This document shows positions 11,735 through 61,092 of a DNA stretch of 64,000 nucleotides, piece after piece. The DNA is from Diplosphaera chodatii. Its lineage: Eukaryota; Chlorophyta; Trebouxiophyceae; Prasiolales; Stichococcaceae. Under the pieces are notes generated by a model. It was not told where the DNA came from, made no database searches, and worked only from the letters and a program-made list of their open reading frames with translations. Each line of letters starts with the position of its first letter. Positions within the stretch are counted from its first letter, which is position 1. A program made the position numbers and the translations under genes. The stretch spans positions 1,426,001 to 1,490,000 of the forward strand of contig JAALGY010000036.1 of the NCBI GenBank assembly GCA_032358165.1, given 5' to 3'.

Positions 11735-11766
<32 letters not shown>

Positions 11767-12825
11767 CCTGTTCCACGACTTCGTGGTGCGCGGCTGTTTC
11801 ACATACGGTATCGGGTGCTTCTGAGCAGCTGTTCAGGTGTTATGAAAAGGGATGCAAGGGGGTGCGCATCCATGTCGGCCTGCGGCGGCCAGTCAAGTGT
11901 GCCTTTGATCACACTGGTTTTGGTGACCATAAGTCTCATGAGCCGAGTTGAAGCGATGGGCGTGCAGGCAGGGGAGTTCATGGATTGCATCGGTGGCCAA
12001 CGCCATGTGATCGGGCATCCAATGCGGTCCCGTGCTTCTCTGCCTGAGCGCTTGCCTGTGAGGGAGTCTACTGAGCGGCAGTCACATGTCAAAAATATCC
12101 CCAGCGTGTCAGGCTGCCAGGGGCAGCACCAGCATTGCAAGCATGGTGTCCAGCATCGACAGCAGCAGCATCGACAAGAGCCTGCAATGCCTGCTCTGCT
12201 TCAGCATGGTGCTCCAGGCCCAGATCCTGCATGCAGGAGGCGGCGGGGGTGCGGCTGGTGGGCGTGGAGGGTTCCTACTATTCAAGGGCATTTCAGTTAT
12301 GAAAGGCAGGCACCAATCCCCGCTTTGATGTTGTGTGTACAGGAGGAGGAGGGGGTGCGGCTGGTGGGCGTGGAGGCGAGCGGCCACGGGCTGGACACGG
12401 CGAAGCACGCGGCGACGCTGACGAAGGGGTCGCCCGGCGTGCTGCACGGCAGCTTCAGCTACCTGCTGCAGGACGCGGAGGGCCAGGTCATCGACCCCCA
12501 CTCCATCTCCGCAGGGCTGGACTACCCAGGCATCGGGCCGGAGCACAGCCACTTCAAGGACATCGGGCGCGCCGAGTACGTGTCGGCGACCGATGCACAG
12601 GCGCTGGAGGCCTTCAGCCTGCTGTCGCGCACAGAGGGCATCATCCCGGCGCTGGAGACCAGCCACGCCATCGCGCACCTAGAGGAGCTCACGCAGACGG
12701 TGCCGGCGGGCGCGCGCATCGTGCTGTGCTGCAGCGGCCGCGGCGACAAGGACGTGAACGCTGCGATGCGGTACTTCGACATGGAGTCGGGCCAGATCCG
12801 GGATGACCTGGACCAGCTGACTTAG
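9591..12825 (+). CDS. trpB: Tryptophan synthase beta chain, plastid-targeted
   Basis: The enzyme condenses indole with L-serine to make tryptophan, using pyridoxal phosphate. Nine exons keep the frame throughout: 9591-9914, 10093-10178, 10332-10419, 10546-10620, 10764-10817, 10997-11086, 11295-11393, 11651-11785 and 12343-12825. The product is 477 residues. The first 75 or so are Ser/Arg/Ala-rich and look like a chloroplast transit peptide. The mature part starts near [19 protein letters not shown]. The PLP lysine lies in [18 protein letters not shown] is present, and the phosphate-binding loop is [12 protein letters not shown]. The ending DLDQL matches family length. The ATG at 9591 is the first in frame with a targeting-like leader. 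The last intron (557 bp) is the longest and holds a partial copy of the next exon boundary. Confidence 0.95.
12233..12271 (+). repeat. Duplicated acceptor and exon start in trpB intron 8
   Basis: About 38 bp, from CAGGAGGCGGCGGGGGTGCG to the end of GTGGGCGTGGAGG, repeats the 3' splice site and first codons of the final trpB exon (12340-12377) with only two or three differences. It lies about 105 bp upstream inside the intron. Splicing here would encode [12 protein letters not shown] and reach a TGA about 22 codons on, giving a truncated enzyme. Confidence 0.8.
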
Positions 12826-17704: not shown

Positions 17705-18812
17705 CGTGCAGGCGGATCGGCGTCGTGAGTGCCTGCGCCTTGCCGCCCTGCGCGGCGAGGTGCACGTCAGAAAATAGAAAAGACACGTTTAGCAGTCTCC
17801 TTGCACATAGTAACCCTGTGCTAGAGCTTGCTCACGATCTCAAGCAAGCAGGGGCGGCTGCGGGAGCCGTTGCCCACGAATGCATTGCGGGTTACCGCAG
17901 CCCTGACACGCTACGCGAAGCCTGGCACAGCGCAACATCGGCACGACGGTGAAGCCATAACACCCATGCAGCTGCTGGCCTAGATGCCCGGCCTGGCCCC
18001 AGTTGAGTGCGACGGGCCCGAGCATATAGATTTGAAACCGCTGCCAACATGTTCACTTTCTCACAGGCCCGATGTGGAGCAGCGTGGTCACTCCGCTACA
18101 CACACTTCGCCTTCAAAGTCGTGGCGGTACTGTGGGGGAGTCTGCGCGGTGCGGCGTGCCCTCCGTGCGCTGCACGGCGCGTTGTAACGTGGGTCCTACT
18201 AATCTCTTGTGGCATGTGCAGGCCCCCAAGACAGCGCCTGTGGCACCGCAGATTGCATATTCGAGGCCTAACGAGGCTTACAATGCTGCTGGAATGTTGA
18301 GCTATGTCTTTCTGCGGCCGGACGCGTGGCTGGACGCGGGCACTGACTCATGCATAATCTCAGCTCTAGCAAGGCACTTGGGCCTAAACTGGCGTCGCAG
18401 CATGTGACGCTCGCGCGAAAACGGAGCATCAACTGGGCACCGACATGCAAATGCAGGGCGATCGCGCTAGCGTCGATAAGCATGGTAACGCCCATCGCAG
18501 CTACGGCAGTGCAACTCGGCAAGCTACAGAAGTTGTACTCACCTCCGTGCGTGGGTGCACCCCTCCGGAAGATGAGAGATGTTCAAGTCGTATGAACTTC
18601 GGGCGCGTCGATGGTCAAAGCTAACTTACAAGACAGATGCTCAATGCACCCGGGTCCTCGAGGAAAGGAATGTCAGCAAAGGAATACCAATCAGACCCGC
18701 AGGGACTAGGGTCCCACCGCCGCTGCGGCCGAGACCCTATTCGGTCCATGTGATCGCGCCCTCCGCCTTGTGCAGAGGCACTTTGCGGCGGTCACCATCA
18801 AGGAGCAGTGTC
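17705..18812. promoter_or_regulatory. Divergent intergenic region
   Basis: About 1.1 kb separates the starts of nucleoside-phosphorylase-like copy 1 (-) and carA (+). It should hold both promoters and 5' UTRs. Open frames here have no recognisable domain, and no clear repeat or RNA gene was seen. Confidence 0.45.
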
Positions 18813-21800
18813 ATGATGGCTGCGGGCATGCAGCTGCGTTCGTTGCCCCAGGCAACGTACACCCGATCAGCACCGCAGTTGCCATCGGCACAGCACCCGG
18901 CAGCCCGGCATGCAGCCGCTCAGCTGGCCAGCAGCCGGCAGCAGGCGCAGCGTCTGAAGCAGCGTGCACTGCTGGTGCCATGCTTCAAGTCATCAGCCGC
19001 CCGCAGTGGCCTCAGCGTGCGGGCGGAGGCCAATAGCAGTGCCCCATCCCCGCCCTGGAAGCAGAAGAACGCCCGGCTGGTGCTGGAGGATGGCTCCGTG
19101 TGGCACGGCGTGGCCTTTGGCGCCACGGGGCAGGCAGTTGGCGAGGTGGTGTTCAACACCTCCATGTCCGGCTATCAGGTGGGGTCCTTGTGCCATTTTG
19201 GGCACAGGATCTGCTGCTCGAGTTGGGTGCAGTCACTGTGCCTCAAGCTGCCCCACACGCGGCTGAGGCGAGGTGCAACAGCATTGCATGCAGCCGGCAG
19301 CACAGGATCCGGAGGCTGATGGTGCAGTAGACGCGCCAATCGGTGTCTAGGGTTGCAGCGGCGGCAGCGGGGACATGTTCCACACCAGCAGCAGCGTCCG
19401 CATGCTCGTCTCCCCTGCATGTCAGCAGCAGGCCCGCTCTCACTAGCATCATATACACGACGCAGCTGACATGCAGCCCTACGTGAAGCAACTCGTGGAA
19501 TGGCAGTCTGACATCGCTGCTCAGAGCTGAGCTGAGGTGCTTATCACTATGCCTGCAGGAGATCATGACGGACCCGTCCTACAGGGGCCAGTTCGTGTGC
19601 TTCACGCACGTGCACATAGGCAACACCGGCATCAACTTCGGTGCGCCTGGACAGCCACCCTGTACCCTGGAACCCTGCTTTAGAATCAGCCGGCATCAGG
19701 AGCCGTGCCTGGCATTCCTTCTCAACACAGCGTCAACGCACATGCAACAGATGCAGCCTGCTTGGCTGCAGCATGTCAGCCTTGAGTCAGGCACTGACGG
19801 CCGCAGCGCGTCTTTCACCGCAGATGATACCGAGTCATCAAAGACGCATCTGGGGGGCGTCATCGTGCGGGACCTGTCGTGCGTGGTGTCCAACTACCGC
19901 TCCACCCAGTCGCTGGACGAGTACCTGAAGGAGCAGGTGAGGGGTGTAATCAGAGGCGCACACAAATGGCGAGGACGCTCTGGGACTGTGCGGACGGCAT
20001 TTGCAGCGGTCTCGGGGCCAGAGCAGCTGGCCTGGCGCATGCGGAGACGACCTGCGGTCAGGCGGTTGTGTGCGGCCAGAGTTTCCTGGCAACAGCATGC
20101 TCCACGTAAGTGGTGCATGCTGTCTGTCAGGGCGCCCAGAGATGCTTGGTGCATGCTGTGGCACCGCCCGCGGGCGGCCGCCCTGCCGATTGCCAAGCCT
20201 CTGACTCCTCGCTCCAGGGGGTGCTGGGCATCGCGGACGTGGACACGCGCGCGATCACGCGAGCGCTGCGGCAGACGGGCTGCCTCAACGGCGTCATCTG
20301 CACCGACGCCAGCAAGTCCGACGACGAGCTGCTGGCGCAGGCCAAGTCCTGGTCCATCCTGGGCAAGGACCTCATCTCAGAGGTGGGTGCGCTGCTGCAG
20401 ACTGTCCCCCGAAGATGCTGCTCAGGCACTCGCGATTGCGACATGGCTGTCAGCTGCACCAGTGCCAGCAGGCGATAAGAGTGGCACTATGACCCTGTGC
20501 ACAGTCTCCACTGCGGCAATGCCAGCACTGCCAGCTTGAGTGCGTGAAGCACCGTGTCAGGGGCCCGGCATCTGGTCGCTCCTGTGCTCCTGGTGACACC
20601 AAGTGCTGCACACCAAAGGGCCGCAAATACTGTGCAACATCACAACCCGGCAACTGGGGCCGCAGGTCACCTGCAGCGAGCCGTACGAGTGGACGGACCC
20701 CACCATCGACGAGTGGGAGTTCTCGGCGGCCGTCAAGGCCCGCGCCGGCAGCGAGCCCTTCCATGTGGGACCCCCTGCGCTCTGTCGTGTTTGCCGCTCG
20801 AGGCGCATGCCTTGACCACTCGAACACCCTCGCCTGCACAGATGCTCTCCATACCATGCCAAAGTGGCGGCACAGAGCATACCTCGCTACCATGTATTTC
20901 GTCTGCGGGCAGTGTGAGGAGTATTGTTGACCATCAGCATTATATGCAGGTGGTGGCATATGACTTCGGCATCAAGCACAACATCCTGCGGCGGCTCACG
21001 TCCGCCGGGTGCAAGGTGACGGTGGTGCCCGCGGCCTGGCCCGCGGAGAAGGTCCTGGACATGAAGCCCGACGGCATCTTCCTGTCCAATGGGCCGGTGA
21101 GCACAGGACTGCTGCACATCGTTTGCCAGATCCTGGAGGAGTCATGCGGAACCATGCTCATGCTTGACTGCGCTGCAGGCTGTTAGGAGGATTGGGGTGG
21201 CGCTGTTACGCAGTTCAGGCGCAAAGCCGCATGACATGCTGTGACACCGCTGTCTGCCGGGCTGCAGGGTGACCCGAGCGCGGTGCCGCAGATCGTGGAC
21301 AATATCAAGACGCTGCTGGGCAAGAAGCCCATGTTCGGCATCTGCATGGGGCACCAGATCTTGGGCCAGGTGGGCACCCGGGGGCCTGTGCAAGCATCTC
21401 GCATCTTGGAGACTCTCCACCTCAGCAGCAGCTTCCAGCAATGCTCCATCCTATTGTTGTATTTTCACGGTCAGCAGGGTTTATATCCGCGGATCAGAGG
21501 AGCAGGCGTGCCTCTGCATGACCGCACATCCACTTGTTGTCTGCACTTTCTGTGGCTCCTGCAACTTCAGGGTCGTGTCGTTGGTCATGCAAACCAGCTG
21601 CCAGCCCACCACAGCATGGGCCAACCTTGAGGACTGGACTATAAATCAGCGTGCTTATAATAATAAATTGCCTGTTCAGGTGGTGGGCGGCACGACCTTC
21701 AAGCTGAAGTTCGGGCACCACGGCGGCAACCACCCCATCCGGCACAACAAGGACGGTGGGGGCCCCACCCCCAACCCCCTGCTAGATTTGACATCACTTT

Positions 21801-42800: not shown

Positions 42801-44433
42801 CTACGACTACGCCGGCGTGGTGCGCGGCGTGATGGAGGACGGGTGCCAGGTGCTCCTTCCTGCTGCCGTTCATCTGCTGCGTGGCCTGCTGCATCCCATG
42901 CAGTGCAGCTGCGCTAGGCTGCTAATGATGAACATCTGCAAGGCTTCATGCTTGGCATATATGCATGTTGGAATTTTGAATGAACTGGCCGGCGTCATTC
43001 CACCTACACTTGCACACCAGCTCGATTGTGAGGCATGATATGGCATTCCACAACTGCAGGTTGGCTTCACGAAGCAGGACACGATGCTGGAGGTGGTGGC
43101 CGATGGCACCGCCCCCGAGGTGCGGCCACAATGATGATCAGGGTTTTACAATGCTCTCACGGCCATGACGGCACAGCAACTTCTGATGTGAGCTCCAGCG
43201 CCCTGCATGGCCGATCCCATGAGCTGCCAACTGCGCCTACTGCTAACCTCCAGCGCTGTCAACCCACTGATAATGCAGCTTCACACCTGTGCCTTTTTAT
43301 GCTCTACAGTCGTGGTCGACCGTTCCCAAGGCGGACCTGCGCCTGGTGTGCGCGACCGGCTGCGCGCCGGTGGACTCCTGGGCCACCTGCAACATGGCCC
43401 GCGTGCCGACCGCCGCCAGTGAGCCAACTTCCTGCAAATGCCTGGGTTTTCTACACATCGTTCCAGTATGACTGCTCATCAGGAACCGCGTGGCATGTGC
43501 ATGGGTGTGCTGGATCACAGCGTGCTGTGGCAAAAAAATATGTGTTCAGCCATCGGGAGCCCACCACGCATGCACCTGTCCCAGACTGAAGGTCCGCTTC
43601 CACTTTGCAGTCATGACGCGGGCCAACTTCACGGGCATCGTCGCTCTGCAGCGTGCGCTCACAGCCGCTGCTGACGACACACAGGTCAGGCACACTCATT
43701 GAGGCCTATATATTCTGATTGCTGCACTAGCTGAAAGGTGTTGTTGACTAATGCCGCATCCAAGCTGCCCCTGCTGCGCGGTGACTTCGATAAACCTCTG
43801 CAGCCGACACCTCGCTTCAGGTTAGGCTTAAACGTCGGGCCAGATCTTGGGCTCACAGCCTCAGATGGCATTTTCTCATGGCCACAGATCAAGGCGATGC
43901 TGCTGAACGAGGAGGCCAACCCCGATGGGCACCTGCTCGGCTCCTCGGCTGTGGGACTGGACGCCGTGACCGGCGACACCGCCACATACCTGGACACCTC
44001 TGCCACCGTGAGTACCCTCCTCTACCATGTTGTGATCAACGGGAATTTCTGGATTGTCTGTAGCAATAGCCCTGCAGTGGCGCGGCGTGTTGTGAAGCAG
44101 CAGTGCGGAATCTGTGCAGGGTTTTGGCCGACCAAGCCTGACGTACCGTCCCCCTACCTGTATAACTTTATTGAGCAGGGCTACGAGGGACTGGAGTCTG
44201 CCGAGACGTTCTCTGGACCCGGCTCGCCCGCGAGCGGCGGCAGCGGCAACATGCCGGAGGCGGCGGCACCAGTGAGCTCGCCTACGACACCAGAGACATC
44301 TGAGGCTTCACCGACGACACCAGAGGACTCACCGACACCCGCGCCGGCTGGCCAGGGCGCCTCTCCTACAGCGCACGTGCCGCTGGCGGCGCTGGCGGCG
44401 GCGGCTGTGGCCGCCGTGGCAGCGCTGGCCTGA
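36857..44433 (+). CDS. GPI-anchored bilobal transferrin-like protein
   Basis: This is probably a cell-surface iron-binding protein. The 21 in-phase exons are 36857-36929, 37787-37917, 38200-38298, 38562-38720, 38980-39096, 39302-39355, 39562-39651, 39887-40027, 40293-40438, 40669-40791, 41030-41171, 41425-41498, 41745-41857, 42113-42238, 42453-42562, 42769-42849, 43060-43119, 43310-43418, 43611-43684, 43888-44007 and 44179-44433. The product is 798 residues. The signal peptide is MKFGVQLAALLVLAAASAHA. Lobe 1 carries LRSCHTGYGRTAGWQIPLG and YWDYPGALRCLMEDAGDVAF. Lobe 2 carries LSSCHTGYRRTAGWNMPIG and FYDYAGVVRGVMEDG. Both lobes keep the two iron-site tyrosines (SYYSVA/QYYAVA and DYPGA/DYAGV) and the anion-site Thr and Arg. 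The Asp and His ligands are replaced. A Pro/Thr/Ser-rich stalk and an Ala/Val-rich hydrophobic end fit a GPI anchor. Introns after 41171 and 42238 use GC donors. Confidence 0.9.
38910..38944. repeat. Perfect inverted repeat in transferrin intron 4
   Basis: TAGGGGTAGTT (38910-38920) and AACTACCCCTA (38934-38944) form an 11-bp perfect stem around a 13-nt loop. It lies in the intron between 38721 and 38979, about 35 bp before the acceptor, so in the transcript it could affect splice-site access. It could also be a small palindromic element. Confidence 0.7.
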
Positions 44434-45957: not shown

Positions 45958-46869
45958 TCAATGGTCCAAAGCTGGTCGAAGGGCTGCCAGCCATTGCGGC
46001 AGTGGCTGCAGCGCCACGCACCCGCTGACGCCCAGCGTCTGCAGGCTGCACAGGCTGCCGATGCTGTCTGGCAGCTGCTGCAGCGCCCTGCACCCGCTGA
46101 GGTACAACTCCCGCAAGCTGGACAGGCCGCCGATGCTGTCTGGCAGCCGCTGCAACGCCTCGCACCCGCTGAGGTTCAGCGTCCGCAAGCTGGACAGGCT
46201 GCCGATGCTGTCTGGCAGCTGCTGCAGTGCGCTGCACCCGCTGACATCCGGCGTCTGCAAGCTGGACAGGCCGCCGATGCTGTCTGGCAGCTGCTGCAGC
46301 GCCCAGCACCCGCTGAGGTACAACTCCTGCAAGCTGGACAGGCCGCGGATGCTGTCTGGCAGCTGCTGCAGCGCCTTGCACCCGCTGAGGTACAACTCCT
46401 GCAAGCTGGACAAGCCGCGGATGCTGTCTGGCAGCTGCTGCAGCATCTCGCACCCGCTGAGGTACAGCGTCTGCAAGCTGGACAGGCTGCCGATGCTGTC
46501 TGGCAGCTGCTGCAACGCCTCGCACCAGCCGACATTCAGCAGTCGCAAGCTGGACAGGCTGCCAATGCTGTCTGGCAGCTGCTGCAGCGCCCTGCACCCG
46601 CTGAGGTTCAGCGTCTGCAAGCTGGACAGGCTGCCGATGCTGCTTGGCAGCTGCTGCAGCGCTCTACACCAGCTAACATCCAGCGTCTGCAAGCTGGACA
46701 GGCTGCCAATGCTGCTTGGCAGCTGCTGCAGCGCCCCGCACCAGCTGAGGTCCAGCGTCTGCAAGCTGGACAGGCGGCTGATGCTGTCCGGCAGCCGCTG
46801 CAGCGCCACGCACCCGGTGACGTCCAGCGTCTGCAAGCTGGACAGGCTGCCGATGCCATCAGGCAGCTG
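45958..46869 (-). pseudogene. In-frame LRR continuation beyond the TAG of NLR A
   Basis: About 12.5 more 24-residue LRR units follow in exactly the same frame as NLR A, immediately after its TAG. They end with a plausible natural terminus (LPQWLAALRPALDH, then stop). The units are as well kept as those before the stop, with no other frame damage, so the interruption is recent, a sequence error, or read through. If the stop is real and not bypassed, this segment is untranslated. Confidence 0.75.
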
Positions 46870-48340
46870 CTACAGCGCCACACATCGGTGCACGTCCAGC
46901 TTCTGCAAGCTGGACAGGCCGCCGATGCTGTCTGGCAGCTGCTGCAGCGCCCCGCACCCGATGAGGTTCAGCGTCTGCAAACTGGAAAGGCTGCCAATGC
47001 TGTCTGGCAGCTGCTGCAGCGCCCCGCACCTGATGAGGTACAGAGCCTGCAAGCTGGACAGGCCGCCGATGCTGTCTGGCAGCTGCTGCAGCGCCTCGCA
47101 CTTGCTGACGTTCAGTTTCTGCAAGCTGCAAAGGCTGCCAATGCTGTCCGGCAGGTGCTGTAGCGCCTTGCACTTGCTGACATCCAGCGTGGTCAAGCTG
47201 CAACAGCTGCCGATGCTGTCTGGCAGCCATTGCAGCGCACAGCACTCACTGATGTCCAGCGTCTGCAAGCTGGACAGGCTGCCGATGCTGTCTGGCAGCT
47301 GCTGTAGCGCATAGCACTCACCGGCAACTAACGCCTGCAAGCTGGAAAGGCCGCGGATGCTGTCTGGCAGTTGTTGCAGCGCCCCGCACCCGCTGACGTT
47401 CAGCGTCTGCAAGCTGGACAGGCTGCCAATGCTGTTTGGCAGCTGCTGCAGCGCCCTGCACCCGCTGATATTCAGCGTCTGCAAGCTGGACAGGCCGCCA
47501 ATGCCATCTGGCAGCTGCTGCAGTGCGCTGCACCCGCTGAGGTACAACTCCTGCAAACTGGACAGGCCGCCGATGCTGTCTGGCAGCTGCTGCAGCGCCC
47601 TGCACGCGCTGACGTGCAGCGTCTGCAAGCTGGACAGGCCGCGGATGCTATCTGGCAGCTGCTGCAGCGCCCTGCACCCGCTGACGTGCAGCGTCTGCAA
47701 GCTGGAAAGGCCGCGGATGCTATCTGGCAGCTGTTGCAGTACCCAGCACCCGCTGACATCCAGCGTCTGCAAGCTGCACAGGCCGCCGATGCTGTCTGGC
47801 AGCTGCTGCAGCGCCCTGCACCCGCTGAGGTACAACTTCTGCAAGCTGGACAGGCCGCGGATGCTGTCTGGCAGCTGCTGCAGTACCCAGCACCTGCTGA
47901 CATCCAGCGTCTGCAAGCTGGACAGGCTGCCGATGCCATCTGGCAGCTGCTGCAGTGCGCTGCACACGCTGAGGTACAACTCCTGCAAGCTGGACAGGCC
48001 GCGGATGCTGTCTGGCAGCTGCTGCAGTACCCAGCACTTGCTGACATCCAGCGTCTGCAAGCTGGACAGGCTGCCGATGCCATCTGGCAGCTGCTGCAGT
48101 GCGCTGCACCCGCTGAGGTACAACTCCTGCAAGCTGGACAGGCCGCGTAAGCTGTCTGGCAGCTGCTGCAGTACCCAGCACCCGCTGACATCCAGCGTCT
48201 GCAAGCTGGACAGGCTGCCAATGCTGTCTGGCAGCCGCTGCAACGCCTTGTACCCGGAAACATCCAGGACAGCCAGCCGCTGGAAACAGCCCAGCCAGGC
48301 AGGCAGCGGTCCCAATAGCCGTAGGTACAGCAGCTGTGTC
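45958..48340. repeat. 72-bp tandem repeat array encoding LRRs
   Basis: The array has 32 consecutive units of 72 bp, each encoding the 24-residue consensus LQTLDVSGCRALQQLPDSIG plus a linker such as SLSS or GLSS. Divergence is low. Pairs of units repeat as 144-bp blocks near 47780-48250 (a WVLQQLPDS unit followed by an LQELYLSGCSALQQLPDG unit). The array is nearly free of stops in several frames on both strands, which creates large spurious antisense ORFs. Confidence 0.95.
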
Positions 48341-51300
48341 AACTGTCTTTATTGGCGGGTGGACGCTCAGCTATCAAAGCCGTCCCGAGCATGCGCCGCA
48401 AGTGACGAAACCTCGGGCGTGTTTCAGGTGCCACCTGCTCAAAGCTGGCCAGCTGCAACCCCGTGTGGCAGCGCAGAACTTGAGCCAATGACACTGCTGG
48501 CTGTGCACCAGCTGCCTGGACGCAGCGGAGCCGATCTGCTGCAAAGCTCGAGCCCTGCCGTATGCACATAGCAAGGTGACCATGGTTGCAAATAAACGTT
48601 CATTTTTGGGGCAGGCTGGAGCTGCCATACACAACATTGCAAACAGATGGCCAGTAGCCCAATCTGATGATAGAATGCCCTTATGCAGGATTGTGCGGCA
48701 AATGGGCTGCACCTCGGGAAGCACGTCGTCAGCTGCCATATCACTGAGTCGCCACAGAGATCCCCTTCCAAACTCGCTGGCAATCTGACTTGCCATGTCA
48801 CGCAATCGATCGTGGACCCAGAGCCTGCATGGAATGGCATGACATGTGACACCGGCTTGCACACACCTACTATGTCAGTTCTACTTCCATGGTTGTGATA
48901 GCAATCAACTTGCAACGGTCATGCCGCCCACTTGCCTGGCGACAGGTGGCATGATGCGAAGCGCCACCTGGTTCTCCCCAGCCACTTCGTCCAGAAGCGC
49001 TGCGCTGCCAAGCTCTGTGAGCATCTGTGCTGCTTTCTGCTGGCAGTGAGCGGCGTGACGCTTCTGCCGCAGCTCGTCGTTGCAATCAGTGACAGCACCG
49101 GTGCCCCTGCTGCGCCAGCCAGAGCCACGGAACACAGCATTGCCGCCACTTTGGCTGTCATCAAGCTGCAGCTGCGCTGCCCACAGTGCAGTCAGGTGCT
49201 GTGCTGGCTGCCCATGCAGCAGTAACGCTGCGTCCAGGAACATGCGCCGGTGCGCATTGCTGGGCAGCGCCTCATAGCTCTTCGTCAGTACCGCGCTGTC
49301 GTCTGCCGGGCCGGATGCTGACGACCAGTCGCCAAGCACAGCCTAGCAGTGGTACGGAACTTTGTCACTGATATTGACACTGGATGGTGCATGTTGCAAA
49401 CTGGTCATCACACTACGTCGGACAAATGGCAGAAAAGTTGGCATCAGCACGGGTCTGCACCTGCCAACCAGGTGCGCCGGTGTGCCGCCTGAGCGCACCG
49501 CCCAGCAGCCGCAGCGTCAGCGGCAGCCCACCGCACATGGCCACTGCAGCTGCCATCTGCTGCTCGCTGAATTCAGGCGGCCACACGCCCTTCTCGAATG
49601 CATGCAGGCACAGCAGCTGCTGCGCAGCAAGCTCTGGCAGTACAGCCATCTGCTGCGGCTCTGCTGCGCCGTCAATGCGGCCGCTGACGAGTGTCTTGTT
49701 CCTGGATGTGATGAGCACCCGGCTGCCGACTGCCCATGTGCCTGCTGACAGCTGGCCATTGTTGCTTAGCTCATACCCAAGCAGTGCTGCCAGTTGCCGC
49801 TCATCCCATAGGTCGTCTAGCACCAGCAGCAGCGGCCCGCCAGACTGGAAGCTGCTCCGCAGTGCTGCACGCGGCACTGCATCGTCACTGCTTGCTGCTG
49901 TCTGGCCGCCGATGCTCTTCAGCAGGTCTTGCTGCTTGCTGATCAGCGCCGGGCCAGAAAGCGCTTCTTGGCCGACGTGCACGAAACAGTGCCTTGTGAA
50001 CTGGCTTTTGGCCTCTTCGAAGAATTGCCGTGCAAGCGTGGACTTGCCAATGCCGCCGAGGCCATACAGCCCGTGCAGCTGCAGGCCTGCCCCTGGTGCA
50101 AGAGCTGCCCTGATGCGCTGCAGCTGCGGCTCCAGCCCAACCAGCTGCCCCATGCTCAGCTGCATGTACGGCAGCAGGATGCGCTGCGCTGCAGCAAACA
50201 GGGTATGCAGCAGCAGATCATCGCCCCTGCACACCACACATGCCCTGTGTTGGTGCTGATAGACTCAGCATGACACGCAGGCATGACACACACCATGGCA
50301 ATGGAAAACGGCGCTGGACCAATCATGGATTAGGCACCTGGCCGCGGAGTCGAGGCGGATGACAGTGGCTTCAGCTAGCTGCGAAAGATCTGCAGCTGCC
50401 TGCTGTGCTGTGACCGCTACGCCGTCAGCCACGCTCGCAGATGGATGATAGAGGCGCAGCAGTCCGCTGAGGCTGCCGCTTGATAGCTCGCCAACATCCA
50501 CGGTGGCATCGTTGGTGGCAACATCAAGCTGTTGTGCCACTGCAAAGGCGTCTGCACCTGGGGCTAGCAGGGAAGCTCCTGACAGCAGCTGCTGCAGCTC
50601 TGGCACGCGCCAGCTGGGGCTGAGAGACATGGGGTACAGCACCGTCAGCAGGTGCGGCAGCGCTGCAGCCGGGCTGGTGCCTCCCGCTGCGGCTGTTCCC
50701 TGCTGCTGCTGCCGCTGGTCCAGCGCCCACCGCAGCTCCTGCACCGTGGCGTGCCGGCGCAAGAAGTCGCGCGTGACAACAAACACCACCAGCTGCGCCT
50801 GCCGGCAGGCGGCTTCCATGACTGCGGCTGCGGAGTGATCATCGCCAGGCAGCAGCTCCCGCTCGTCCACAAATGTGCTGACGCCCGCGTCCCGCAGCTG
50901 TGTCCGCAGGTGCAGTGCAAAGCCCTTTTGGGGGCCCGCATGGCTGATGAACACCCGCTCCTGCCGGTATACCTGCAGCGTCATGTGCCAAAATGTGAGG
51001 CATCTTTGCCAGGCAACATGTCAGCACTGTGAGGTTGAAGTGATGGCGCAGCACACGTGAGGTAATGGCTGCACATTTTGCGGCGATGTTGCAGGCAGAC
51101 GCTGGCTGCTGAACAGGCTTGCGGATGTGTGGCAATGGCACATAGGCAGAGGGCTGCAGGGGAACCACCTGCCGTCCTGGCGCATCCTGCGCAGCAGACA
51201 CCGGGACCGGGTAGGTGACTGCGGCGCTTGACGTGGCACCCGGCTGCTGGGCGGCCATGTCGCTAGCGGTCAGTGGAGCGGCGGCGGCACGGGCACCTGC

Positions 51301-51447
51301 AGCCGCACCGCACGATCCAAGGCTGACGCTTGTTCCAACTTCTGACAAGATGCTGATAAGCATGCTCTCATGCACGCGAGCCCGCGCAGGTGCCACACAG
51401 GCAGGATGCCTGCCTGGCACACTTGCTAAACCATCTCGGCGAACCAC
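46870..51447 (-). CDS. TIR-NB-ARC-LRR receptor, NLR A
   Basis: This is a plant-type intracellular immune receptor architecture. The in-phase exons are 51169-51447, 50338-50972, 49461-50226, 48936-49342, 48713-48824, 48435-48554 and 46870-48342. They give 1,263 residues to the first stop. An in-frame ATG at 51363 is an alternative start. The TIR domain begins at VYRQERVFISHAGPQKGFAL and keeps a Glu in the position of the NADase glutamate (ATVQELRWALDQ). NB-ARC motifs are a P-loop (GLYGLGGIGKSTLA), kinase-2 (LLLVLDDLWDE), RNBS-B (GSRVLITSR), GLPL (CGGLPLTLRLLGG), an RNBS-D-like block (FLDAALLLHG) and an MHD variant (WVHDRLRDMA). Regular LRRs follow. An in-frame TAG (46870-46872) replaces a CAG in LRR unit 20. 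The intron after 48936 has a GC donor. The ligand is unknown; nucleotide switching is inferred from the motifs. Confidence 0.88.
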
Positions 51448-54313
51448 GCGCGTAAGCTCTGTAGCGATGGGCAGCTTCTGCTACACGATGACACTACTCA
51501 GCAATCAGGCGCGCTGAGCACAAGCGGCGCCGGCAGACGTCGCCCTGATGGCGAGTGATCCTGGTCTTGGCGCATGTCTTTGGGGTCAGAGCGCTGCAGA
51601 CGGGTGGGATTGTCAGCAGCATGCACATATGTTGTGGCATGCTCACCGTCTCGCATACGCACGCTGCAGGGCGATGCTTCAGCAGCCGCTGCACCTGCCG
51701 CGTGTCACGGATGGAGCCGCATGGGGCGCTAGATCTGTGTGCACCAATTAGCAGATCGCTAGCGATCATTGTCACCACACACGTCTCAGTTTCGGTGATG
51801 TAGACAACTGATTGTCTTTGGCTACTGCTCACTAGTCACGGCAGGCTTCCCACCAGCCCGTGTGCCCCATGATCACGTGACCAAACGGCATTCGTTGCAG
51901 AACACTTCTGCGAACACTTCTTTGCATGGGCTGCAGCCGCCAAGAGGATGTCTTCCATGCAGACCTGATCCTCTGTGCCGTCATCAGCTTCATCTGTGCA
52001 TCCTCAAATGTCTTATTGCCTGAAATCCTGCCGAGTGTACCCTGAAATCCTGCCGAGTGTACCCTGAAATCGCCGCCTGCAGCGTTCAGTCGCTGCGACC
52101 ATACCCGCTGTCGTTCAGGCAAATGGGACCAGATGTCGCCGCTGCAAGGCACACAGGGCGTGCTTGTCATGGATAGGGAGCCTGGTCTGTTTGCTGGCAT
52201 CAGATGGGGCCTGTGTCAGCAGGCAAACGGCGAGCTTCACGTCAAAATATCCACGCGGAGCAGCATTCAGTGCTGCGACACGCTTGGGGTGCACGAGGCC
52301 GCTCCTATCATGATCATGCATGGGCCGCCCGCAGCAGTACTCAGAGGCTGGCGCAGCGGCGGCGATCCAGACACTCTCGCCATACCGGCAGGAGAGCTTT
52401 CACCAGAGTGGCAGGTGCTGACTTTTATATCCTGAGTCCACCAGTTGGTCTGTGTGGCAGTGCTATTTGATTGGCACTACGTTGCCAACCATGCAGTAGC
52501 CAATAGGACATCAAGCCACATCTGTGTGGTCTTGCTGTGGTGCACCGAAGTCAGTCAAGCCGAGTGACACATTTCACCCGCCTGCAGGCAGCGTGAGCAT
52601 CCCTCGACATTCTCATGGCCACACATCCCTGGGCGCGGCTGGGTGTGGCCGTGGAGTGGGCTGCTGGACGGAGCACCGCCAGGACCGCAGCACAGCACGC
52701 AGCTCGTTGGCGCCACTGCTGCAGGCCAGCCTGCCGCTGCCCCCCGACGTGGTGATCGAGTCGTATATGTGCGGCGCTGTGTGCGGCAACTGCCGCTGGC
52801 AAGTGGCGTGCAGCAGGTAGGCTACCAGAAATGGTGTGCTATTACAAGCTGAAGGGTTTGCCACTGCTTGCTTGCACCTGTTACCCAGGCGCTGTCGTGA
52901 TGGAGCCGCTTCGATCACCAGCTGCCAGCACAGTCAGAAGATGTCCTGCAGCACCAACATGGGCATTCTCTGGAGTTTGCTGGGAGCTGAAATCCGTGTG
53001 CTGCGCGCTGAAGAGCAGCGTATTCGGCGCACCACCTGATCGCAGGCATCCTGGGCATAAGCATGGCAGTGGAGCAGGCTCGATGCTGTCAGGGCCGCAC
53101 GCAGTGAGCCCCTGAACAAGTCGTGGGCACGGCAGCACCCGTGGCAGGGGTGCCTTGCGCTCGCAGACAGCCTCTCTAGGGAAGGAGCAGCAGGGCGGCG
53201 AGCCCTGACGCTGTTGCATGGTAAGGCCTGCACATCAGCAGCTGTCTGGGGAGCTGCATTTTGCTTTAGGTGCACCAGGACCAGCAGCATGACACATAAT
53301 GCAGCACTATGTGTGGCAGTGGCTCCGCTGCCTGGCGCTTGCAGCACCTGGACACTGCCTGCAGCAACTGCCACCAATGTTGTGCAGACCCTGTGCTGCA
53401 TAGATGCAGCAGCCGTGGGCTTGACCGACTTCCTCGACACCAGCTGGCATGGGAGCACTGCGGCGCGTCGCAAGGGCTGCGTGTCGTCCAGGAGGTTGGT
53501 CAGCGACTGTATCAGCGGCAAATTAGGGCTGGCACTTAAACACGCAGCACAGAGTTGTTGGCTTCAAATCACAATCGTGCTGATTGCAGATCAGTCCACC
53601 GGTGTGTGCTGCACTTCTTTCTTGCAGGCTCTGTCGTCAGGCGATGTTGGTCTCTGTACATGCAGGTATGTGAGTTTGCAGCGCCAGCCAGCAGACAGTG
53701 CATCACGCTGGCTGACCTGTGGTGGCGCCGACGCCAACATCGTGGGCATGCTGGCTGATGTGGCGATCTTCTGGGAGCACGACAGGAAGGAGGTGGGCGC
53801 TTGGACCTGCTTATGACTCGGGGAGCAGAGGTTGCTGATACACCAGGGGTCCCAACCCGCCATGCAAGCCGATGCTTTTCAACTGGAACATGGCTAGCGG
53901 CAGCAGTAACATGGACTCCACAGCGCACCTGACCTGGCTTTGATGAAGCCTGTTGCATCAAGCAGCGATGCTGCGAGCATGCCACGTAGTGCTAGATGTG
54001 TGTTACCACCTCAGTGCAGGGCAGTTGGGTTGGACCGGCAGCAATTGCGGTCAAGGCAGAACCCTTATGTGTTGTATGTGGTGGTATCAAGCACCTGTCT
54101 GAGACGGAGGTGTTAGCCAAGCGAAGCACTTCATGACATTGCGGCCAATCCGACAGAGAGGTTTCAGGATGCAGGGTGCAGTCGTTCGTGCTTGTTGCAT
54201 GCGTAATAGGAATGAAAGGCAGGTCTTCGTGGTCTAAAGATTTGATGTGCTGTATGGTATTGAAGGGAATAGAGGGCATGGTGGCTGCTTGTCACAATTC
54301 AATTACAAAGTCA
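51448..54313. other. Spacer between NLR A and the orphan LRR
   Basis: This spacer of about 2.9 kb upstream of NLR A has no gene I can support. Short plus-strand stretches near 52740-52800 (VVIESYMCGAVCGNCRWQ) and 53706-53792 (CGGADANIVGMLADVAIFW) look exon-like and sit next to possible splice sites, but I could not chain them into a frame. The NLR A promoter should lie just above 51447. Confidence 0.35.
52019..52072. repeat. 22-bp direct tandem repeat
   Basis: A 22-bp unit starting CCTGAAATCCTGCCGAGTGT occurs twice in perfect tandem (52019-52040 and 52041-52062), followed by a 9-bp partial third copy. It lies in noncoding sequence upstream of NLR A and looks like a minisatellite-scale duplication. 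Confidence 0.85.
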
Positions 54314-54928
54314 TCACGCATCACCCATACGGACTGTAATACGAAGCGGCCATTCAGACCAGCGTGCTCTATAGCTGGTAAGACGTACTTGTGTCCAGCC
54401 TGCGAGGCATGCTGGCGGCGTCATATTGACGTCGTCGAGAGTGTTGACATGCAGGTAGGTCAGCGCGGTCAACTTGCTGATGCAAGCAGGAAATGGCTGC
54501 CAGAGGCCCTCGCAGTCGCTGATGTCTAGATGTCGCAAGCCGCCCAAGCGGCTCATAGCCTCTGGCAACGAGCACAAGGCGTCGCATTCCGCCAAGTCCA
54601 GATATCGCAAACTCAACAACGACCCCAGCGTGTCTGGCAACACGGCAAGCTTGTAGCAACCATGAAGCCCCAGCCGCTGTAGGCCGTGCAGCTTGCCGAA
54701 GCTGCCTGGCAGATGTGTCAGCTGGCAGCCTTGATATAGATCCAAGCGCTGTAGGCTGCTCAGCTCGCATATGCTGTCCGGCAGCCGCCGGATTTGTCTG
54801 CATCTATCGAGCACCAGCTGCTCCAGGCTGGACAGACCGCCAATGGTTTCTGGCAGGCTTTCCAAGCTGCAGCAATCCGTGAGGTCCAGCCACCAGAGGC
54901 CCGTAAGCCTGTGGATGTCGTTGTTGCC
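54314..54928 (-). pseudogene. Orphan LRR fragment
   Basis: This open frame of about 200 codons encodes roughly seven LRRs of the same family as the flanking receptors (LWWLDLTDCCSLESLPETIG, LRRLPDSICE-type units, LRYLDLAECDALCSLPEAM) and a non-LRR tail ending RITVRMGDA. It is preceded by an in-frame TGA at 54929-54931, with no TIR or NB-ARC exon attached. The repeats are more diverged than those of NLR A. It is probably the 3' end of a lost NLR gene, though expression as a short LRR protein cannot be excluded. Confidence 0.7.
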
Positions 54929-55839
54929 TCAGCTACATACAGCAGCCAGCCGCTGTCACCGCCAGCTGTCTGTTTACCAGTGCAGGCAGATCCGCTGAGA
55001 CTCATATAGTGGCACCTGCGCCAGCGTTGACCACCTGATCATGGGGCATCGGTGTCAACTGCAGAACCATATTTGACACACCAGCTATTCCCCAGCCGTT
55101 TGGGCATCAGTGGCACGAGAGCAGGTAGCGGCCTTGTGAGGGCTGTTGGGACCAGCCGCAGGCATCAGTGCGCAGTGAGGCGCACTGCCCACACACCGCT
55201 TTTGCTACAGGGTGCTGTGATGCATGTTAGTAGCATCTAGCGGACCTTGGGCAGGGCCGCTATTTGGCATAGCGCAGCTTCGGCAAGTTTGCCCAGCACT
55301 AGACAGCACCAACATGAAACATTCATGGGTGCAGCCATCTACGTTCGCGTGGGGAAGCAAGTCGGTTGCTGCCGATATCACGCGCATGTTGGTTGGCACT
55401 CAAAACCTACACCATGGTGCGATGCATGATTCTTTTCTTGGAATCAGCTGCAGGTCTTGCTGAACTTGACAGATGGTCCAGCTGACGAAGGCACATCCGA
55501 TGTTCATGGTGGCAGGACTGCAGGGTTGCAACCACGGCAGGCGCTCATATGATTCTAACTTAGCTGATAAGGGCCCATACATCTTGCACAGCAACAAACG
55601 GATTGCAGCAGGTTTGCTGTTGCCGTTACACACTCGAGGGATGACATGACTGTTTGACAGCAGGATTCTTATGTCAGCATAACGGCCTTGAGCTGAGCTG
55701 AGCTCGATACCTTGGTAGATGCAATTTGGCAGGGTTTCATTGGCTTGAGGGACTGATGACTGACAACTGTATGTCACACCAATGTTGTCTTCAAGACTCA
55801 AATCAATACCATCCTAGTGTACACCCTCCTAGCGCTAGT
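54929..55839. other. Spacer downstream of NLR B
   Basis: This region lies between the orphan LRR fragment and the NLR B stop codon and should hold the NLR B 3' UTR. Only short unassigned ORFs were seen. Confidence 0.5.
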
Positions 55840-58800
55840 CTAGCTTTGAGGTGTGTGTGGCAAGGCATCGCTCCCCAATATTTTCAACTGGTGCAAGGTA
55901 CGAGACGTACCAACTTTTGCTGGTAGTGCCTCCAAGGATGAGCAGCACTGAAGGTTCAAGCACTCCAGTTTGCGAAGCTCACTGATGCCATCCGGCAGCT
56001 GCCTCAATGTGCTGCAATTGTACATGTCAAGCCGCGTCAGATTGCTAAGCCTACCCATCGCAGTTGGCAGCTGCTTCAGCGCCTGGCAGCCGCAAAGGGA
56101 CAGCGTGTGCAACTTGTTCAAATTGCAGATACTATCTGGCAGCTGCTCCAGTATCAGGCAGCCGTTCATGTCGAGCCGCTTGAGCTCCAACAAGCTGCCA
56201 ATGCCGGCAGGCATCTCCCTAAGATTGTTGCAGTTGGCGAGGCAGATGCTAGTCAGGCTGCATGAGCCGCAGATGCTGTCCGGCAGCTGCTGCAACCCCC
56301 GGCATTCTTTCAGGCTGAGCATTTGCAAGGCGCGCAGGCCGCAAAACATGTCTGGAAGGGTCTGCACCGCTGAACAGCCGCTGAGGTCCATGCTGATCAG
56401 CTTGTCCAAGCTGCTGACGCTGCCAGGCACGCGCTGGACACCGCTGCAGCCGGCGATGTTCAGGCTTGTCAGGCTGCTCAGGCTGCTGATGCCATCCGGC
56501 AGCAATTGGAGGCCGCAGCACTGGCGGATGGTCAGGCTGCGCAACCGCCCCAAGTCGCCAAGACCCAGCCGCTGCAGGCTGTGCATCTTGACCACCTCCA
56601 ATTTGTCAAGCGCATGGCAGTCGGTGACGTCCAGCCGCCGCAAGCTGCTGCCCAAGCTGCGGACGCCGCGCGGCAGCTCCATCAGGGCGCGGCAGCCGCT
56701 GAGGTCCAGGTCCTGCAGGCTCGTCAGGCAGCTGATGCTGTCCGGCAGCTGCTGCAGGGCGCTACATCCCCCGAGACGCAGCAGCGTCAGGCTGCAGAGT
56801 CCAGCGAACAGGTCCGGCAGGCCATGTAGACCTTCGCATGTGCTGAGGTCCATGCTCAACAAGCTGTTGAGGGTGCCAAAGCCGGCTGGCAGGTAGCGCA
56901 CACTGCTGCACCCGGCGATGTTCAGGTGTTGGAGGTTGCTCAGGCCGCCCACGAAGTCTGGCAGATCTTCGAGGGAGCAGCACCTGCGGAGGGTCAAGCT
57001 GACCAGGCTGCGCATGCTGCTGGCAGCCAGGTGCCGCAGGCTGCGCATATCCGTCATGTCAAGCTCCTGCAGTGCTTGGCAGCCTGCGATGTCCAGCACC
57101 TGCAAGCTGCCGCCCAGGTTGCGTATGGTAGGTGGCAGCTCCAGCAGGGCACAGCAGCCGCTGACGTTCAGGTGCTGCAGGCTGGTCAGGCTGCCGATGC
57201 TGGCCGGCAGGTGCTGCAGTGCCACGCAGTGTCGGATGCCCAGCCGCTGCAGGCGGCTGAGAGCGGCAAATATGTCCGGGAGCTGTCGCAGAGCTGAGCA
57301 GCCCCCGAGGTCCATCTCGAGGAGGCTGCTGAGGCTGGTGATGCTGCATGGCACCTGCGACAGGTTGGGGCAGCCGGAGATATTCAGGTGTGTCAGGCTG
57401 CTCAGGCTGTCAATGCCATTCGGCAGGGCAGCCAGGGACCAGCAGCCGCGCAGGCTCAGGCTGACCAGGCTGCGCGCCCTGCTGACGTCCAGGTGCTGCA
57501 GGCTGCGCAGCTTTTCCAGATCCAGATCCTGGAGCGCCTCGCACCCCGCAAAGCTCAACTGCTGCAGGGCTGTCAGGCAGGTGATGCTCCGGCGCAGCAT
57601 CCGGTTGTCGCTGACGTGCGGTAGCTCCAGCAGCGCGCTGCAGCCGCTGAGGTCCAGCACCGTGAGGTTTGTCAGGCAGCTGATGCTGTGGTGCAGCTGC
57701 TGCAGCCTGGGGCAGCTGCTGAGGTCCAGGCGCCGCAGCCCCTGCCAGGCGTCAAGCTTCTCGTTGCTGCTGAGCGGCAGGTCCTCAAGCTCTGCGGACC
57801 GGCTGACGTCAAGGTGCAGGCAGGTCATGTACTGCATGCTGAGCGGCATCTTTGGCAGCACCCGATAGCCGCGCATGTACAGCCGCTGCAGGTTGACCAG
57901 GTCGCCCAGTCCGGTCGGCAGCCGCACCAGCCCCGCGCACCCGCTGACCTGCAGCTGCTCCAGGGCGCTGAGGCTGCCGATGCTGTGCGGCAGCTGGCCC
58001 AGGCCCGTGCAGCCGTCGATGTTGAGCTGCGTCAGGCCGACCAGGGTGCCAATGCTGTCGGGCAGCTGGCGCAGGCCCCAGCAGCCGTCCATGTCCAGCT
58101 GCTGCAGGCCCGTCCACCGGTCGATGCCCGCCGGCAGCTGCACGAGGTTGCGGCACCGCGACAACACCAGGTGCCGCAGGCTGACGAGCCCGCTGCTGGT
58201 CTCCGGCAGCTGCGTCAGGTTGCAGCAGCCGCCGAGATCCAGGACCTCCAGGCTCTGCAGGTCGCCCAGGCTGTCTGGCAGCTGCTGCAGCGTCTGCGAG
58301 CCGCTCAGATCCAGCACTGCCAGCTGCCGCAGGCTGCCAAGCCAGGCTGGCGGCGTGCCGGCCAGCCGCAGGTACAGCAGCCGTGATGTGTGGCCGCTGG
58401 GTGGGGCAGCAGCGCCCGACGGCAGCAGCTCGAAGGGCAGTACCGCGGCCTGCAGCACGGAGTGCTGCTCCAGCAGCTGCCCGACGGTGAAGGTGGGCAG
58501 CGCGTTAACTGCTGCGCAGCAGCGGATGCGGTCAGCTGCGTACACCGCGTCCTGCGGAGACATGAAGCGAGGGTGGGGCTGACCCTCTCACAGACCGTGG
58601 CTCCAGCTGAGATATTTTGCGATGTTCATGAGCTGAACCCCGGAGCATTGCAGTGTTGGCACACCAGCGGTATCCAGCAGTGCCTCCGTAGACAATTGCC
58701 GTCCTTGCGGACCGCACCTGCGGGGGCGTGTCATCAGTTGTCAGGTCGCTGAGCAGCCAGCGTGCCGGGCTGCCGCAGTCCTGGGCGATCTCGCTGGCCA

Positions 58801-61092
58801 TATCGCGCAGGCGGTCGTGCACAGCAAGCCTGCAAGCACAGCGGCAGGACATCCATGTTGTGAGTGGGTGAGACGCCTGCGATGCCAGCCATCCGTGGCC
58901 TACGCTGCAGAGTGCCACCTCAGGAGCCGAAGCCTGCACGCAGACGCTCAGCGGTTGGTAACCCACCGCACCTCACGATGGTGCCGGGTTCACTGCTGCC
59001 GGAACTGCCGACGCTGCGGCCAATGACGCCAGAGACGCCGCTGCCATCACCTTTGTCCAGGACTACAAAAGACCGCTGCACAAGCTCCTGCAGAGTGCCC
59101 TCAGCGATCTTTCGACAGCGCCGGGCGTTTTCCACGGCGCGCTGCGGGCGCGAGCCGTCGTGGATGCTCTTGCCCCGGCTGCGCCACCCTGTCCCGCGCA
59201 GAACGAGGCCGCCGCCGCTGTGGAGATCGTCCTGCTGCAACTGTGCCGCCCACAGGGCTGTGAGGTGGCGCTGCGGGCGGCCGTGCAGCAGCAGCGCCGC
59301 GTCCAGGAACATGCGGTGGTGCGTGCTGCCCGGCAGCGCCTCGTAGCTCTTGCGCAGCAGCCGCACATCGTCTGCGGCCCCGGGCGCCGTTCCCCATTCG
59401 TCGAGCACAGCCTGCACGGCAACATCAGCAGCATCGAATCTGGAGTTCGCCCCCTGCTGTGGTGTGCGCAGATGCACCGCCGCAGCTGCTGGGACCCAGA
59501 AGGGCAAGGCGTCGGCGCTAGCCACCACACCTGCCAGCCGGCGGTGGTCTTGTGTTGACAGAGTGCACCGCCCAGCAGCTGCAGCGTGAGCGGCAGGCCA
59601 CCGCAGATGTCCGCAGCTGCCGCCAGCTGGCTGTCACCAAAACCCGCTTTAGGCGTGCTCTGCCCAAATGCCCGGAGGCAGAGCAGCTGCTGTGCGTAGG
59701 ATTTTGGGAGGGGGCTGACCACCTGAAGCTCTGCAGCGGCCGGCACGGCAGCCGCTAGGACTTCGCTGGTGCGCGACGTCAGCAGCACTCGGCTGCTGGG
59801 GGCAAGCTTTGCCACGGTTGTAATGATAGAGTCGCTTGCCCGGCAGCCGAGCAGCGCCACCAGCTGCTGCTTATCCCACAAGTCATCCAGCACCAGCAGC
59901 AGCGGCCCGCCATGTTCAAAGCTGTGGCGCAGCGAGCTGCGCAGATAGGCGTCATTGCTGCCACTGTCAACAAGGCCGCCAATGCTGCTGAGCAGTTGCC
60001 GCTGCTTAGCAGCCAGCGGTGCGCCCAGCACCGCATCTTGGCCAACGTGCAGAAACGCAGCGCGGTTGAACTGAGGCTTCGCATCCTCATAGAAACGCTG
60101 CGCCAGCGTGGACTTTCCGATGCCGCCGAGACCATACAGGCCGTGCAGCAGCACGCTTGGGCTGCGTGGGCGCTCGCCCATGCCCAGCGCCTCCCTGATC
60201 TGCAGCAGCTGCGGCTCCAGGCCAACAAGCTGCCCCATGCTGAGCTGGTCGTTGGGCCGCAGCATGCGCTGCACGGCTGAAAGCGTGTCCCCCAGCAGCA
60301 GATCGTCACCCCTGCACACCAAGACAGGAGCGCATGTCGGGCACATATCATGCAATGCAGACGCAACAAGCAGCCATCCACAACACATGCACGACCGCCT
60401 GTGCAGCTGCCAGAACCGAGCTGCACCAGCATCCTCGCCTACCTGGCTACAGAGTCGGCACGGACAACAGTGGTTGCAGCGAGATGTGCAATATCTGCAG
60501 CAGCCTGCTGTGCTGTCACAGCTGCCACTGCGCTGCCAGCCACACCTGCAGCCGGATGGTACATCTGCAGCAGTCCACTGAGGCTGCCGTCTTGCAGCTC
60601 TCCAACATCCACGGGGTCATCAACCGCGGCAGCATTGAGCCTCTCCGCCACTGTGTCGATGTCAACGCCATCTGAGATGGGCGCCAGCTCCCTCAGCAGC
60701 AGCTGCCGCAGCTCGGGCACCCGCCAACTTGCGCTGCCTGACGTCGGGTACATCACCGTGAGCAAGCGCGGCAGCGGCGCCGCTGGTCCGCTGTCAGCTG
60801 TTGTGGCTGCGTCTGCTTCCTGCTGCCGCTGACGCTGGTCCAGCGCCCAACGCAGCTCTTGCAGCGTGGCAGCCCGTCGCAGGAAGTCGCGCGTGACCAC
60901 AAAGACGACCAGCTGTGCCATCCGGCAGGCCGCCTCCATCATTGTGGGTGCACACTGATCAGCGCCGGGGAGCAGGTCCCGCTCATCCACGAAGGTGCTG
61001 ATGCCGGCGTCCCGCAGCTGGGTGCGCAGGTGCAGCGCAAAGCCCTTCTGCGGGCCCGCGTGGCTGATGAACACCCGCTCCTGCCGGTACAC
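55840..61092 (-). CDS. TIR-NB-ARC-LRR receptor, NLR B
   Basis: This tandem paralogue of NLR A has an intact LRR exon. The in-phase exons are 60443-61092, 59531-60311, 58972-59411, 58718-58829 and 55840-58551, giving about 1,564 residues. The first coding exon, expected beyond 61092 by analogy with NLR A, was not found, so the 5' end is incomplete. Motifs are TIR VFISHAGPQKGFALHLR with ATLQELRWALDQ, P-loop GLYGLGGIGKSTLA, kinase-2 LLLVLDDLWDK, RNBS-B SSRVLLTSR, GLPL CGGLPLTLQLLGG, RNBS-D-like FLDAALLLHG and an MHD variant LAVHDRLRDMA. The LRR exon encodes roughly 35 diverged repeats (for example LQQLDMDGCWGLRQLPDSIG) and ends DALPHTPQS. Intron positions and phases match NLR A, except that B lacks the intron just before the LRRs. 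The family is known from plant immunity; the function here is inferred. Confidence 0.88.

Follow-up and report, generated by a model that had tools for sequence, protein, structure and literature searches.

TNL receptor genes in the green alga Diplosphaera chodatii form a family of 25 that may signal through EDS1-PAD4-type receptors

Can a green alga run an immune receptor system of the kind known from land plants, and which proteins would read its signal? The question is raised by a stretch of 64,000 nucleotides of the Diplosphaera chodatii genome (contig JAALGY010000036.1, positions 1,426,001 to 1,490,000; hereafter the window). Two genes on its minus strand, A and B, each encode a TIR domain, an NB-ARC domain and leucine-rich repeats (LRR), an architecture abbreviated as TNL. 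They have many relatives in the genome, which also carries genes for the EDS1-PAD4 (EP) domain, most of them placed head-to-head with TIR genes and one of them joined to TIR exons. We estimate a probability of roughly 0.58 that the window genes belong to a chlorophyte TNL family whose TIR products act on EP receptors.

The presence of two TNL genes in the window is confirmed. The Pfam families TIR_2/TIR, NB-ARC and LRR exceed their curated cut-offs in both genes, with NB-ARC at E = 5.1e-23 in gene A and 1.2e-18 in gene B, and TIR_2 at 1.9e-14 and 6.9e-14. An earlier reading of the window, made from the letters only (the sequence-only reading), had pointed to the NB-ARC landmarks and to a VHD form of the MHD motif, and both genes bear this out: P-loop GLGGIGKST, kinase-2 LLLVLDDLW and GLPLTL are visible, and VHD replaces MHD. 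For the NB exon, a simple Nei-Gojobori calculation on 21 pairs from seven window-type copies gave dN/dS values of 0.28-0.66, which indicates that the receptor part is under constraint. Together with the E-values, this argues that the domain matches did not arise by chance. Furthermore, the domains are truly fused, because paralogues without introns at the respective places carry them within single open frames (TIR, NB-ARC and ARC2 in a copy on contig C9; NB-ARC, ARC2, VHD and LRRs in one on C51). A chance locus of LRRs alone was rejected, based on the Pfam domains of both genes and on the intronless paralogues.

The genome-wide survey proposed in the sequence-only reading covered 85.6 Mb in 55 contigs (labelled C1, C9 and so on, the window lying on C30). 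It revealed 25 NB-ARC matches above the cut-off, every one accompanied by a TIR match. The copies are distributed over C1 (3), C9 (3), C14 (5), C24 (4), C28 (2), C30 (the 2 of the window), C51 (5) and C52 (1), eight contigs of 1.0-2.1 Mb. A glutamate occupies the catalytic position in all 25 TIRs (22 found by script, three by eye). Among land plants, the residue at the end of kinase-2 separates TNLs, where it is not W, from CNLs, where it is W. It is N, E and D in Roq1, ADR2 and RPP1, and W in the CNLs NRC1 and CNL9. With W in 24 of its 25 copies, the algal family departs from this TNL hallmark.

To which NB-ARC proteins is the family closest? A profile built from nine of the 25 copies matched Roq1 best in the PDB (2.7e-45), followed by ADR2 (2.7e-31), RPP1 (1.6e-30) and other plant NLRs. 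The non-plant entries APAF1 (3.7e-9) and bacterial AfsR (2.1e-7) came far behind. A tree of 48 rows was then computed from the 25 algal copies, three plant TNLs, three plant CNLs and 17 bacterial sequences, the latter representing 17 of 21 loci, since four gave no row under the motif filter. Five of the algal rows were trimmed by length, and a few residues at their ends may derive from introns. The algal rows cluster together (88/86) next to the plant NLRs, separate from the bacteria (85/83), with moderate support. In these comparisons, the NB-ARC of the algal TNLs sides with plant NLRs rather than with bacterial proteins. A bacterial STAND origin was rejected by the profile ranking and by the tree, which held no fungal rows. 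In the best topology the algae lie outside TNLs plus CNLs (83/50), and a grouping of algae with TNLs was not rejected (p-AU 0.32).

Two earlier claims can therefore be followed only in part. The architecture was called typical of land plants, which applies to the order TIR, NB-ARC, LRR and to the grouping with plant NLRs; the kinase-2 motif ends as in CNLs. The locus was also expected to inform on the age of plant-type TNLs. The tree is compatible with algae as sister to TNLs or to all plant NLRs, so the window locus does not fix that age.

Compared with the plant TNLs Roq1 and RPP1, the algal proteins share the glutamate at the catalytic TIR position, the P-loop, kinase-2 and GLPL motifs, the ARC2 motif FLD, the MHD-like VHD, the LRRs and the clustering of their genes. 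They differ in the kinase-2 ending and in the position of the NB-ARC, which the best tree puts outside the sampled plant NLRs. In addition, gene B has no post-LRR C-JID among the matches listed at E 0.01.

The grouping with plant NLRs makes the identity of the host important. The assembly includes a contig of 174 kb with rbcL and an EF-Tu gene, and a plastid EF-Tu gene is not known from land plants. For the rbcL tree, 21 of 120 listed sequences were combined with the host; the resulting 22 rows included a single streptophyte alga, whose label we presume from the prefix of its identifier. The host falls into a group with Batophora and Trentepohlia (84/86) and outside a well-supported group of nine streptophyte rows (96/97), with three rows unplaced. 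Among full-length rbcL sequences, the most similar listed were three without a label (93%, 92% and 91%), a cluster labelled Batophora (92%) and one labelled as a moss (91%). On this tree the host is likely a chlorophyte, and a land-plant host is excluded as far as the 22 rows indicate. A comparison of the rbcL protein with the PDB, a weak test, gave the highest scores to 8q04 and 1gk8 (1067 and 1064 bits). We take the latter to be from Chlamydomonas, and the entries at 997-1022 bits to be from pea, rice, Arabidopsis and spinach. The view of the sequence-only reading that the host is an alga thus agrees with the plastid markers, and contamination by a land plant is disfavoured by the rbcL tree and by the EF-Tu gene on the rbcL contig.

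It follows that there is very little room for bacterial or fungal STAND proteins, or a contaminating plant, having been mistaken for algal TNLs. Such an error could be suspected from the lack of a close public protein for gene B: of 8000 candidates scored, one gave a hit, at 1e-5, and this was a CNL from Capsella. Against it stand the introns in both window genes, the spread of 25 copies over eight long contigs, the proximity of the NB-ARC to plant NLRs and the green-algal plastid markers of the assembly.

What could read the product of these TIRs? The genome search for the EP domain returned 10 matches, all above the Pfam cut-off, and none in 14 prokaryote controls. An eleventh, weaker copy on C9 was found by protein searches. 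A profile from nine of the 11 copies was searched against the PDB: all 13 matches below 1e-4 were EDS1, PAD4 or SAG101 (E 9e-12 to 3e-5), and of the 15 sequences up to E 1, the two outside the family were unrelated proteins at 0.14 and 0.24. The EP part of the gene that joins TIR and EP, searched alone, found PAD4 (1e-9), EDS1 (1.5e-9) and SAG101 (0.006), with 13 of 13 matches within the EDS1 family, and its match reaches over the preceding EP helices, as in EDS1/PAD4/SAG101. The algal core, W..xxA..FR.L.EP.DIANYYR..GHYL..NRP, is shared with the same proteins. Its identity with Arabidopsis reaches 23/53 for EDS1 and 23/52 for PAD4 (43-44%); the lowest values among seven algal cores are 15/53 to PAD4 and, in another core, 15/46 to both EDS1 and PAD4. 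The algal copies are themselves divergent, with 34-40% identity to the first row of their alignment.

In contrast to EDS1/PAD4/SAG101, no lipase-like domain was detected in the algal EP proteins; TIR exons or a putative N-terminal membrane helix take its place. In the pieces examined from five of the 11 EP genes, Pfam recognised EP but no lipase, and 47 Lipase_3 matches across the genome (E 0.001) included none at any EP locus. A gene with lipase and EP domains was thus sought and not found in the Pfam scans or the genome-wide Lipase_3 search. A strong N-terminal hydrophobic stretch of 19 residues is present in eight of the nine membrane-type EP proteins scored, the exception being the C10 copy at 3043 kb; the start of the C14 protein is unlocated, and for the stretch of the C9 protein no start codon could be placed. 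The EDS1 family is defined by lipase-like plus EP domains, the EP domain being unique to it (PMC9806590). Since the published definition demands both domains, the algal EP genes fall outside the family. Relatives are present in environmental data, as the EP profile matches 14 public fragments that all carry the same Pfam label, and in 13 cases the E-value is 2e-40 or lower. By eye, the first half of a JGI metagenome EP fragment looks nearly identical to the 127-kb gene of C51 and its second half to the 112-kb gene of that contig.

The link between EP and TIR lies in the arrangement of the genes. Nine of the 11 EP genes, distributed over six contigs, have a TIR gene or match as their divergent neighbour. 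Seven of these are located upstream of a TNL (C1 twice, C14, C24 twice, C51 and C9). On C51, a membrane-type EP gene with its start at C51:126211 is divergent from the TIR-EP gene, and one EP gene of C10 is divergent from the TIR match C10:3060204. From the EP start, or its first recognised piece, to the TIR, the distance is 0.85-2.6 kb across the nine pairs. The EP gene at C10:3043 kb has no TIR neighbour among the matches listed. In the pair on C9, the partner of a window-type TNL is an EP-type gene (786.6-788.1 kb) whose EP core is weak and which contains a long insertion rich in Q and P.

By its exon layout, the TIR-EP gene (Table 1) is a fusion, and its first EP exon has no upstream start codon in its own frame. 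What identified the TIR part was its resemblance to the TIR exons of a C10 gene of the TIR-NB-TPR type (47% over 120 aa, 55% over 60 aa). In that gene the TIR is combined with a P-loop NTPase and an extended TPR array, a layout shared with the TIR-NB-TPR (TNP) proteins, and the gene belongs to a tandem cluster of six TIR matches at C10:3080-3153 kb, none with an NB-ARC match. It is separate from the window TNLs, and its likeness to TNP is one of domain layout. An isolated weak TIR_2 match (21.5 bits, below the cut-off) lies outside the clusters at C3:141017-141181.

In plant TNLs, the LRR senses a ligand, the NB-ARC exchanges its nucleotide, and the TIRs assemble as an NADase. By analogy, the LRR of an algal TNL would sense a ligand, and the NB-ARC with its VHD motif would be an ATP/ADP switch, in which nucleotide exchange brings the TIRs together. 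The assembled TIRs would then consume NAD, as their plant counterparts suggest, and the presumed nucleotide messenger would be bound by EP proteins at the membrane. Most of these candidate readers are small, probably membrane-anchored and encoded in divergent pairs with TIR genes, and one is the TIR-EP fusion. The window TNLs, which have no EP neighbours, would use EP proteins encoded elsewhere, as many seed-plant TNLs share EDS1. In seed plants, TIR products bind the EP-domain pocket of EDS1 heterodimers, which then engage RPW8 helper NLRs (PMC10442000, PMC12856790). The putative immune relay of the alga would be EDS1-like but lack the lipase-like domain and, judging from the searches, RPW8 helper NLRs as well. 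With no RPW8 domain detected, the output arm of seed plants is either missing or unrecognised in the alga.

Several observations weigh against such a relay. For 18 of the 25 TNLs no EP neighbour was found, both window genes among them; for these two, the search took in the whole window plus a further 3.5 kb (best E 0.58). EDS1 R493, a charged cavity residue, is required for TNL immunity (PMC6377607); among seven algal cores aligned, its equivalent is an arginine only in the TIR-EP protein and another residue in the six membrane-type cores. The six-frame RPW8 search of the genome, which had no plant positive control, gave no matches at E 0.1. The TIR match C10:3060204 is below the Pfam cut-off (26.7 vs 28 bits). 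Likewise, in the fusion Pfam recognises no TIR in exon 1 and gives exon 2 only 16.2 bits against a cut-off of 21.3. Because the frame is offset near the end of TIR exon 1, the present copy of the fusion may be broken or mis-assembled. Finally, gene A is interrupted by a stop codon.

The missing EP neighbours and the arginine not kept in the membrane-type cores, along with the chlorophyte TIR-NLRs already published, would also fit ordinary chlorophyte TNLs as in Chromochloris, next to EP genes that have another role and take part in no relay. We regard this as unlikely, although it is the strongest competitor. EP-TIR pairs inside one cluster are not independent, owing to tandem duplication; even so, nine close divergent pairs out of 11 genes on six contigs, plus one EP domain joined to TIR exons, would be difficult to account for if the genes had no functional connection.

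The stop codon in gene A also bears on whether the window copies are pseudogenes of a decaying receptor locus, as does the LRR fragment between the two genes (LRR_14, E 2.8e-21), which had been noticed before as an LRR remnant. The open frame of gene B, with intact motifs, and the constraint on the NB exon speak against decay, and we consider it improbable. The window gene models were assembled from the DNA itself by joining exons according to frame and splice sites (Table 1). The gene B model has 1,564 aa in an uninterrupted frame across five exons, and its introns of 119-166 b are all GT-AG. These five exons do not include the start codon, which belongs to an unplaced exon further upstream than 61092. 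Gene A has six exons, with GT-AG introns except for the third, which is GC-AG, and an in-frame ATG four codons ahead of 50972 offers an alternative start. The sequence-only reading had described both genes as complete-looking, which applies in full only to gene B; the left boundary that it drew, at 46870, is the position of the stop codon.

Table 1. Features of the two window TNL genes and of the TIR-EP gene. Positions are those of the window, except where a contig is named.
Feature	Position	Strand	Details
Gene B, TNL	61092-55840	-	exons 61092-60443, 60311-59531, 59411-58972, 58829-58718, 58551-55840 (stop included)
Gene B, TIR exon	60443..61092	-	Pfam; equivalent of catalytic Glu (QELRWAL) ~60858-60856, aligned with Roq1 CLEEL
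Gene B, NB-ARC exon	59531..60311	-	Pfam; P-loop ~60133-60107
Gene B, ARC2 and VHD	58718..59411	-	two exons; ARC2 (LRKSYEALP..HHRMFLDAALLLHG) aligned with Roq1; VHD ~58822-58814
Gene B, LRR exon	55840..58551	-	LRRs of the pattern L..LP.SI..L..L..L.L.GC; stop codon at 55840
LRR fragment between genes A and B	54317..54928	-	LRR_14
Gene A, possible first coding exon	51169..51258	-	30 aa, phase compatible; uncertain
Gene A, TNL	45958..50972	-	exons 50972-50338, 50226-49461, 49342-48936, 48824-48713, 48554-48435, 48333-45958
Gene A, VHD motif	~48817-48809	-	gene model
Gene A, in-frame TAG	46870..46872	-	inside the LRR (last exon); frame open upstream and for 303 codons beyond, to 45958
TIR-EP gene	C51:123261-125065	-	TIR exon 2, linker exon, two EP exons; phase 0, GT-AG introns

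Elsewhere in the window, exons on the plus strand match other families. An exon at 41713-42255 matches Transferrin (E 4.3e-9), and a neighbouring frame at 43735-44433 has a Ser/Pro-rich and hydrophobic tail; the gene with the Transferrin match possibly encodes an algal iron-binding surface protein. Exons at 11527-12825 and 18576-20539 match a pyridoxal-phosphate enzyme (25.7 bits vs a cut-off of 35) and the small chain of carbamoyl-phosphate synthase. Scans of the window for tRNAs and with Rfam gave no matches.

How do these findings relate to what is known? The sequence-only reading had stated that NLR genes are reported from only a few chlorophytes. Chlorophyte NLRs have indeed been in print since 2019 (PMC7145615; PMC8891106), and Chromochloris zofingiensis encodes TIR-NLRs according to a paper from 2023 (PMC10952240), so that plant-type TNLs in a chlorophyte are not new. 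Taken by themselves, the window TNLs are further chlorophyte TNLs of this published kind. Both algae have clustered TIR-type NLR genes (PMC7145615, with the wording TIR-NLR from PMC10952240); by description, not by sequence, they differ in number, with six CzNLRs in Table 1 of PMC7145615 against 25 here. According to a 2026 review that cites, among others, Feng 2024, NLRs from algae are able to elicit responses when tested in N. benthamiana. What goes beyond the published chlorophyte TNLs is the pairing of TNL and EP genes and the TIR-EP fusion. In Andolfo 2019 (PMC7145615), EDS1 occurs in the reference list only. No report of algal EP domains was recognised in our literature searches, which left out subscription papers (e.g., Feng 2024) and bioRxiv. 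A 2024 survey looked for EDS1-type proteins by way of their lipase and EP domains, so lone EP genes may have escaped it.

In published surveys, EP proteins and RPW8-NLRs are present in seed plants only (PMC10834447), and seed plants were proposed to have evolved this specialised module (PMC9153377). Many losses or one transfer could account for the gap between seed plants and a chlorophyte, and together with the EP core identities of up to 43-44% to Arabidopsis EDS1 or PAD4, this could be taken as a sign that EP and/or TNL genes moved horizontally between green algae and seed plants. Such a transfer would be compatible with the relay. It seems doubtful to us, a shade more so than the absence of any relay. 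In the best tree the algal NB-ARCs fall outside the sampled plant NLRs (with moderate support), and the divergence among the algal EP copies, with their lack of a lipase-like domain, makes a recent acquisition from seed plants improbable. With somewhat less than even confidence, we suggest that TIR-to-EP signalling predates seed plants and is run by this chlorophyte through membrane-anchored EP receptors, whose genes stand divergently to TNLs, and through a TIR-EP fusion, and that the EDS1 family goes back to an EP receptor that gained its lipase-like domain later, or is derived from an alga.

Should the pairing prove non-functional, the 25 TNLs would still exceed the six NLRs of Chromochloris, the sole chlorophyte count compared. 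As they stand, chlorophyte EP genes paired with or joined to TIR contradict the simple form of the statements that restrict EP proteins to seed plants or the EP domain to the EDS1 family. If the proposed reading is true, the origin of the TIR-EP immune relay may lie much further back than assumed so far, and the EP-TIR genes of Diplosphaera would offer a compact, testable model for the first reading of TIR products and for EDS1 before it acquired its lipase-like domain.

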